Of a DNA stretch of 64,000 nucleotides, positions 35,627 through 36,004 are shown piece after piece. A model generated the notes under the pieces. The model was not told the DNA's origin. It saw only the letters and a program-made list of their open reading frames with translations, and did not search any database. The translations under genes and the position numbers were made by a program. Each line of letters opens with the position of its first letter. Position 1 is the first letter of the stretch. Source of the DNA: Halobacterium sp. DL1 (lineage in GTDB: Archaea > Halobacteriota > Halobacteria > Halobacteriales > Halobacteriaceae); NCBI GenBank assembly GCA_000230955.3, contig CP007060.1:2424216-2488215 (forward strand), written 5' to 3'.

Positions 35627-35705
35627 GTTCGTTCGGGTGTCTCACTTCTCTGTGTTAAGTGTCGCCGTCGGATTCTCACGAGAACTGCTTCGGCGTGAAC
35701 ACCTC

Positions 35706-35810
35706 GAAAGCCCCGAGGCTGTGAACTCGGGGGACTCGCTGCGCTCCTCAGTCACTTCGTTCCCTGCGGTGCTTGCGTCATCCGCCTTCGTTCACAGCCT
35801 CGCCCCTTTC
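35706..35810 (-). repeat. long hairpin element, GAAAGGGGC...GGGGCTTTC family, copy 2a
   Basis: Read on the minus strand: GAAAGGGGC (35810-35802), stem GAGGCTGTGAAC (35801-35790), a 63-base loop, stem GTTCACAGCCTC (35726-35715), GGGGCTTTC (35714-35706). The two stem arms are perfectly complementary over 12 bases. The loop carries GACGCAAGCACCGCA and GAGGAGCGCAGCGAGTCCC, which recur in the copy at 57504. It lies head to head with copy 2b, separated by 42 bases containing ATTGACCAGCCGG. No protein-coding frame is supported here. Confidence 0.8.
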
Positions 35811-35852
35811 GGTCCGCCCGTCGCCTATTGACCAGCCGGTCACGGGTGGACT

Positions 35853-35952
35853 GAAAGGGGCTGGTAGCTGGACCCGGCCCCGACGACGCAAGCACTCGAC
35901 CGTAGGGAGAGCGCGCAGCGAGTCGCGGACGGTCCAGCTACCAGGGGCTTTC
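35853..35952 (+). repeat. long hairpin element, GAAAGGGGC...GGGGCTTTC family, copy 2b
   Basis: GAAAGGGGC (35853-35861), stem TGGTAGCTGGAC (35862-35873), a 58-base loop, stem GTCCAGCTACCA (35932-35943), GGGGCTTTC (35944-35952). The stem is a perfect 12 bp but unrelated in sequence to that of copy 2a. The loop keeps GACGACGCAAGCAC and GCGCAGCGAGTC. Together with copy 2a it fills the intergenic region between the small gene at 35441 and the NUDIX gene at 36005. The remaining bases of that region (35627-35705, 35953-36004) show nothing else recognisable. Confidence 0.8.
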
Positions 35953-36004
35953 GAAGAGTTCCCCAAGGAGGCTGCATCGCTCGAAAACAAGTCGGAGACG
36001 AAAA

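Follow-up and report, generated by a model that had tools for sequence, protein, structure and literature searches.

The element described here lies between genes in Halobacterium sp. DL1, within a window of 64,000 nucleotides of contig CP007060.1 (the whole stretch of DNA that was analysed). It has a NUDIX gene on one side and, on the other, a 61-aa gene beyond which lies a TGT gene. A purpose-made codon-based caller placed no gene between 35626 and 36005, in agreement with the first-pass annotation, for which no gene explained the region. That annotation described two facing hairpins at 35706-35952 and located both correctly. The left unit (35706-35810) reads, in plus-strand order, GAAAGCCCC, GAGGCTGTGAAC, loop, GTTCACAGCCTC, GCCCCTTTC, and the right unit (35853-35952) reads GAAAGGGGC, TGGTAGCTGGAC, loop, GTCCAGCTACCA, GGGGCTTTC. 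Pairing is perfect in each of the 12-bp stems, and loop pieces common to the two units stand in inverted orientation, again as first reported. The units are real, yet they do not form an independent pair: the facing hairpins are halves of a single four-armed palindrome of ~260 bases, which is laid out as follows.

35698..35705, plus strand: outer flank AACACCTC, the 5' side of the outer stem, consisting of AACA and a lineage-specific tetramer
35706..35714, plus strand: frame nine-mer GAAAGCCCC, whose partner in the four-way junction is 35944-35952
35715..35726, plus strand: left arm stem, 5' strand GAGGCTGTGAAC (inverted repeat)
35727..35789, plus strand: left arm interior, a type A module with GACTCGCTGCGC at 35733-35744 and GTGCTTGCGTC at 35769-35779
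35790..35801, plus strand: left arm stem, 3' strand GTTCACAGCCTC (inverted repeat)
35802..35810, plus strand: frame nine-mer GCCCCTTTC, whose partner is 35853-35861 (inverted repeat and fold)
35811..35852, no strand: linker, which is the central arm GGTCCGCCCGT...ACGGGTGGACT, a hairpin around ATTGACCAGCCGG
35853..35861, minus strand: frame nine-mer, GAAAGGGGC on the plus strand (fold)
35862..35873, minus strand: right arm stem strand, TGGTAGCTGGAC on the plus strand (inverted repeat)
35874..35931, minus strand: right arm interior, a type A module inverted relative to the left unit
35932..35943, minus strand: right arm stem strand, GTCCAGCTACCA on the plus strand (inverted repeat)
35944..35952, minus strand: frame nine-mer, GGGGCTTTC on the plus strand, closing the outer stem (fold)
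35953..35960, no strand: outer flank GAAGAGTT, the 3' side of the outer stem, complementary to 35698-35705 at 6/8 positions

The two halves are joined by pairing at both their inner and their outer ends. The inner ends with the linker (35802-35861) form an inverted repeat of 20 nt with 90% pairing, and the outer ends (35697-35714 against 35944-35961) form another of 18 nt with 89%. Because the linker ends pair with each other and the outer ends do the same, 35698-35960 is one palindrome with arms, and two independent hairpins are ruled out. Fold prediction for DNA and for RNA gives this element a perfect four-way junction of outer stem, left arm, central arm and right arm; when 35696-35962 is folded, both return the same single cloverleaf, with a branch point free of unpaired bases. 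The DNA fold reaches -86.9 kcal/mol (z -8.76) and the RNA fold -161.1 (z -9.18), each against 200 shuffles, none of which was equally good. In the cloverleaf, the CCC bases of each hairpin pair with GGGG of the opposite half. The CCC/CCC 'mismatch' within each lone hairpin is thereby explained, since the GAAAGCCCC/GCCCCTTTC nine-mers build the junction. Covariance model R1 scores the right unit at 89.8 bits on the minus strand.

Distribution of the family across Halobacteria

Further copies, anticipated by the first-pass annotation in haloarchaeal genomes, were sought by frame search and exist throughout the class. The genome that contains the window has 22 exact frame-bounded units against 0 for the reversed control, and a DNA search of it with the window element returns 47 matches, overlapping and opposite-strand ones counted. 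The exact frame pattern is present in 12 of the 13 genomes of the genus. Exact-frame units are found in 218/391 Halobacteria genomes and 67/86 genera, with three reversed-control matches among those listed. Single units measure ~95-118 bp and composites, such as the window element, ~260 bp; the central-arm pattern, a proxy for composites, occurs in 76/382 genomes and 29/85 genera. A covariance model of one unit, for which up to 20 candidates were scored per genome, finds matches in 163/194 class genomes and 57/65 genera. The family occurs in most haloarchaeal genera and between core genes, and the richest genome, G303, has 69 exact units. Beyond the class, 5/241 genomes of the phylum yield one chance-like match each, with unlike content, and the controls gave 4.

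The element is also carried by 11 haloarchaeal plasmids, where 10 of the 11 matches coincide with no annotated feature. Neither the phage records searched nor the viral contigs searched with a strict central-arm pattern gave a match, and a viral or phage origin is ruled out on these grounds. A known Rfam family is likewise ruled out, as the element has no Rfam match (only tRNAs reach the gathering score).

The family varies in its modules and its arrangement. The same GAAAGCCCC/GCCCCTTTC frame can enclose another loop module, type B (containing ATATC...GATAG), which prevails in family f6 (e.g. L068-L073). Genus g9 has nearly no exact matches and is found by the covariance model; in its frame, CAAAGCCCC/GCCCCTTTG, both members of the outer pair have changed. 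The g9 form (L388-L403, e.g. L391, L398 and L399) is a related single-unit element of ~330 bp with a distinct downstream module containing CCTCCCCAGCC, and it reaches ~20 model matches per genome, the largest number of candidates scored. Two copies of this single-unit element in G175 share 96% identity along 340 bp and have different surroundings, which suggests that a relative of the family has spread recently. In G169 (L408-L410), single units stand back to back, the opposite of the head-to-head layout in the window, with a AGTCCCACCC...CCCCAGCCG module after each; as these are two single units, circular permutation is ruled out. An autonomous element spanning distant units (L198-L200) is also ruled out, since the intervening genes are ordinary and each end is a separate half-element or composite.

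Covarying arms and their history at fixed loci

Pairing of the arms is maintained across the class while their sequences differ. The arms of 165/181 units pair at ≥8/12 positions; the 16 units below this threshold were dropped from the arm-pairing test, and the same filter applies to the counts of module orientation and of strand pairs given below. Within the 165 units, with 142 distinct 5' arms, own arms pair at 94.4% and arms from different units at 47.6%, so that stems keep their pairing despite differing between units. Composites behave in the same manner. In a set of 57 (64 minus 4 with poor arm pairing or a short flank, minus 3 near-duplicates), the arms pair at 0.892 and 0.883 versus 0.440 and 0.446 with shuffled partners, and the outer flanks at 0.789 versus 0.548. 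The central arm pairs at 0.823 versus 0.768 when shuffled, a small gain because its sequence is conserved. The 23 column pairs that covary most strongly among these 57 elements, by corrected mutual information, are all predicted pairs, and an alignment of 30 unit sequences has double-sided changes at 18/30 pairs. The outer flanks vary by lineage and keep their complementarity, as in AACAGCCA/TGGCTGTT, AACAGCGT/ACGCTGTT and AACAGCAA/TTGCTGTT.

Partner shuffles, mutual information, alignment and covariance model bear out, class-wide, the initial proposal that the stems truly covary inside a frame that is conserved along with pieces of the loop. A chance origin is ruled out by the reversed-pattern controls, the fold shuffles and the arm-partner shuffles. 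We show, by prediction and covariation, that one strand folds into a fully paired four-way junction in which the nine-mers of the junction, like the base of the central arm, stay constant, and the arms drift so long as each pairs with itself.

In sets collected by searching for the frame, its conservation arises by construction, and only orthologue sets anchored on neighbouring genes (with anchors tolerating 1-2 mismatches) can therefore test it. At the HisA-HisB locus, a half-element occurs in 7 of the 12 congeners examined. Its 18 frame bases are identical in 21/21 comparisons, where identity is 61% in the adjoining flank and 56% in the arm. The loop module in G009 is of another type, and that of G002 is inverted with respect to G008. 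The arms share a conserved outer mismatch in 7/7, and as such single-sided, uncompensated differences persist in orthologues, arms are not always simply copied from each other.

The window locus itself carries the element in G000 and G012 and in 0/11 other congeners. The right arm of G000 is closest to the left arm of G012 (87%, versus 69% between right arms and 75% between left arms), so that between these sister species either one arm or the element as a whole has switched sides. At a locus in genus g11, the element is present in 6 of the 16 species listed; we call this genus Haloarcula-like from named contigs with matching elements, among listed matches that include chance bacterial ones. 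Here G089 (L340) is nearly identical to G343 (L330) along the locus except that its left arm has collapsed to GGCC, removed precisely at the base of the hairpin, a neat instance of palindrome deletion, and G120 and G158 hold additional nested hairpins. Across units, the loop module is inverted in 8 and direct in 190. The swap, inversion and deletion of arms at fixed loci are DNA-level events. These orthologue comparisons show that the presence of the family between core-genome genes is lineage-specific, and that its arms are exchanged, inverted and deleted as units. Orthologous copies with swapped, inverted or deleted arms provide a natural test of how palindrome pairing is kept up, whether by selection, repair or recombination.

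Genomic context and strand bias

Composites with 900 bp on each side (37/64, two loci being counted twice as the orthologues L001/L219 and L004/L049) were used to examine the surroundings, with genes placed by the same codon-based caller. None of the 37 overlaps a gene. The neighbouring genes are in tandem for 24 of them, divergent for 9 and convergent for 4, and the elements lie at a median of 92 bp from the start codon and 51 bp from the stop codon. Among 20 flanking proteins from 11 loci, 17 match Pfam domains of known kind, including eRF1, NFACT, helicase/ERCC4, TatC, class I and II tRNA synthetase cores and eIF2-alpha; of the remaining three, two match families with function unknown and one matches none. 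A promoter-like motif is present in only 5/42 of the spacers between element and gene. A rise in AT at -21 to -30, in bins reliable only to ~50 bp, suggests at most a promoter between element and gene.

One rival reading is a DNA site maintained by the host: a cruciform, or a palindrome bound by protein, which would lie between transcription units and serve chromosome topology or insulation, its copies being kept by selection. The position between genes, the mostly housekeeping neighbours, the frame unchanged in seven orthologues whose flank and arm have diverged, and a family lacking a model match in only 31/194 genomes are all consistent with such a role. We nevertheless judge it improbable, given that presence at any one locus is lineage-specific, that arms have been deleted without visible consequence and that some genomes, e.g. 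G007, do without the family.

The first-pass annotation left the choice between a structured RNA and a DNA hairpin recognised by a protein. Of the two, DNA is favoured, because 9/37 composites stand between divergent genes, modules are inverted within stems and an arm of the window element switched sides. There is also evidence of strandedness. Non-Watson-Crick stem pairs on the CCCC strand of 117 representative units comprise 35 A.C versus 14 G.T, which means more G.U on the complementary GGGG strand. Folded as RNA, the GGGG strand is more stable than its complement in 48/60 units, and the related single-unit element of g9 folds better on that strand as well (-112.7 vs -91.6). In composites with tandem neighbours the G.U bias follows the unit rather than the gene direction, in very small numbers.

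Together with the pairs changed on both sides, this bias speaks for a family of structured non-coding RNAs or UTR elements, in which the GAAAGGGGC...GGGGCTTTC strand would be the functional RNA and the covariation would come from RNA folding. We keep this reading mainly because a pure DNA model leaves the G.U strand bias unexplained, and consider it unlikely. The units of a composite lie on opposite strands, so that one transcript would contain one unit in each sense; the loop helix of type A has an invariant G.U at its inner pair on the other, CCCC strand (30/30 units); and composition alone is expected to give some strand bias. The divergent neighbours, the inverted modules and the missing Rfam match also count against it.

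Mobility and comparison with known repeats

For the two composites used as queries, the best other copy is 80% identical in the same genome and 85% in G303, which gives no sign of a recent burst. No target duplication is seen by eye in the flanks, and neither orthologue set resolves a target duplication or an exact empty site, with ~50 bp on each side also differing. None of the 20 flanking proteins is a transposase. Furthermore, PF01797 (Y1/RAYT) was not found in G004, G034, G010 or G009, which contain 22, 37, 14 and 12 exact units, respectively (the G009 genome is 87% complete); a Y1 transposase therefore seems not to be required.

These results bear on a derivation from known insertion sequences, either as a MITE or as a palindrome-associated transposable element (PATE) of the IS200/IS605 type. 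The first-pass annotation had named a known repeat or MITE family as the alternative to its proposal; the element is a dispersed repeat, which comes near to that alternative, and no known family matched. Its terminal inverted repeats, which it shares with MITEs, and a length too short to code would suit a non-autonomous derivative, and haloarchaea are described as rich in PATEs, MITEs and small mobile repeats (PMC3119063). PATEs in particular are, like the present element, haloarchaeal, non-coding and palindromic, with heterogeneous copies and core deletions in the account of PMC3119063. They are described there as lacking terminal inverted repeats and as having near-terminal palindromes and ends resembling IS605 (PMC3119063). 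Our element, with its covarying inverted terminal repeats, does not fit this description. The copies are not near-identical, and in view of the transposase-free flanks and of the four element-rich genomes in which PF01797 was not found we regard derivation from a known insertion sequence as highly improbable.

The small mobile repeats SMR-A and SMR-B of Haloquadratum walsbyi come closer. They are described as short and non-coding, with terminal inverted repeats and no target duplication seen, SMR-A being ~110 bp (PMC3119063). The present family is similarly haloarchaeal, with terminal inverted repeats and no room for a transposase, and its single unit is about the size of SMR-A. In contrast, copies of one SMR type commonly show >95% identity and often lie within PATEs or IS605 elements (PMC3119063), whereas here different copies have unrelated arms, which pair or match about as often as by chance, and occupy places between genes of the core genome. 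Compared by description only, the element fits the account of SMRs except in copy identity and site preference.

A second likeness is to the REPINs or BIMEs (REP doublets) of bacteria, which are described as extragenic and multi-copy, with two inverted motif copies around a spacer, folding as single-stranded DNA, and compensatory changes (PMC3116915). The haloarchaeal element has a conserved motif in two inverted copies separated by a spacer and a predicted single-stranded fold, is extragenic and dispersed, and has compensatory changes in its paired part. The type case of a REPIN is one hairpin of ~70-110 bp, with ~71 bp between the end motifs, for which its authors also draw an alternative 'clover' fold (PMC3116915). 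Our element differs in its ~260 bp, four-way core and two long modular arms, in being archaeal, with many copies between divergent genes, and in having several element-rich genomes in which Y1/RAYT was not found. It would work like a REPIN and fails two defining features, namely the RAYT association and the single short hairpin.

Our preferred reading, in which we have slightly more than even confidence, is a class-wide Halobacteria family of non-coding palindromic interspersed DNA repeats, similar to REPINs/BIMEs or 'small mobile repeats' and acting at the DNA level. As to function, we infer that the element would act on DNA much like a REPIN or BIME. It may extrude as a cruciform, or its single strands may fold during replication. 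The junction could then be read by an enzyme of the host or of a mobile element, which need not be a Y1 transposase and which would copy, flip or resolve the element. Most copies would be selfish or neutral, and would be tolerated nowhere but between transcription units. Several observations count against this reading: no recent copies are seen for the two composites used as queries, the orthologue sets resolve neither a target duplication nor an exact empty site, the 20 flanking proteins include no transposase, and several genomes rich in the element gave no PF01797 match. The conservation of the frame across so great a distance looks like functional selection rather than neutral drift, and the G.U bias on one strand is unaccounted for.

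A more far-reaching form of this repeat-family reading, which we put forward tentatively as possible rather than probable, is a class-wide mobile or maintained DNA element that is recognised through its shape. It would encode a perfect four-way junction of the Holliday type, whose core is fixed and whose self-pairing arms can be exchanged, and a junction-reading enzyme other than Y1/RAYT would copy and flip it. If it is true that such an enzyme spreads the family, REPIN-like repeats would have a non-Y1/HUH route.

The family appears to be undescribed; no earlier account of it was found in the open-licence literature searched. Double-hairpin elements of fungal mitochondrial DNA look mobile and insert into each other. 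They are organellar, shorter and without a four-way core, unlike the element described here. In the haloarchaeal family, small perfect hairpins with common loop motifs are nested in elements at six loci (L014, L252, L254, L329, L332 and L404), as if hairpins had been inserted or copied into other hairpins.
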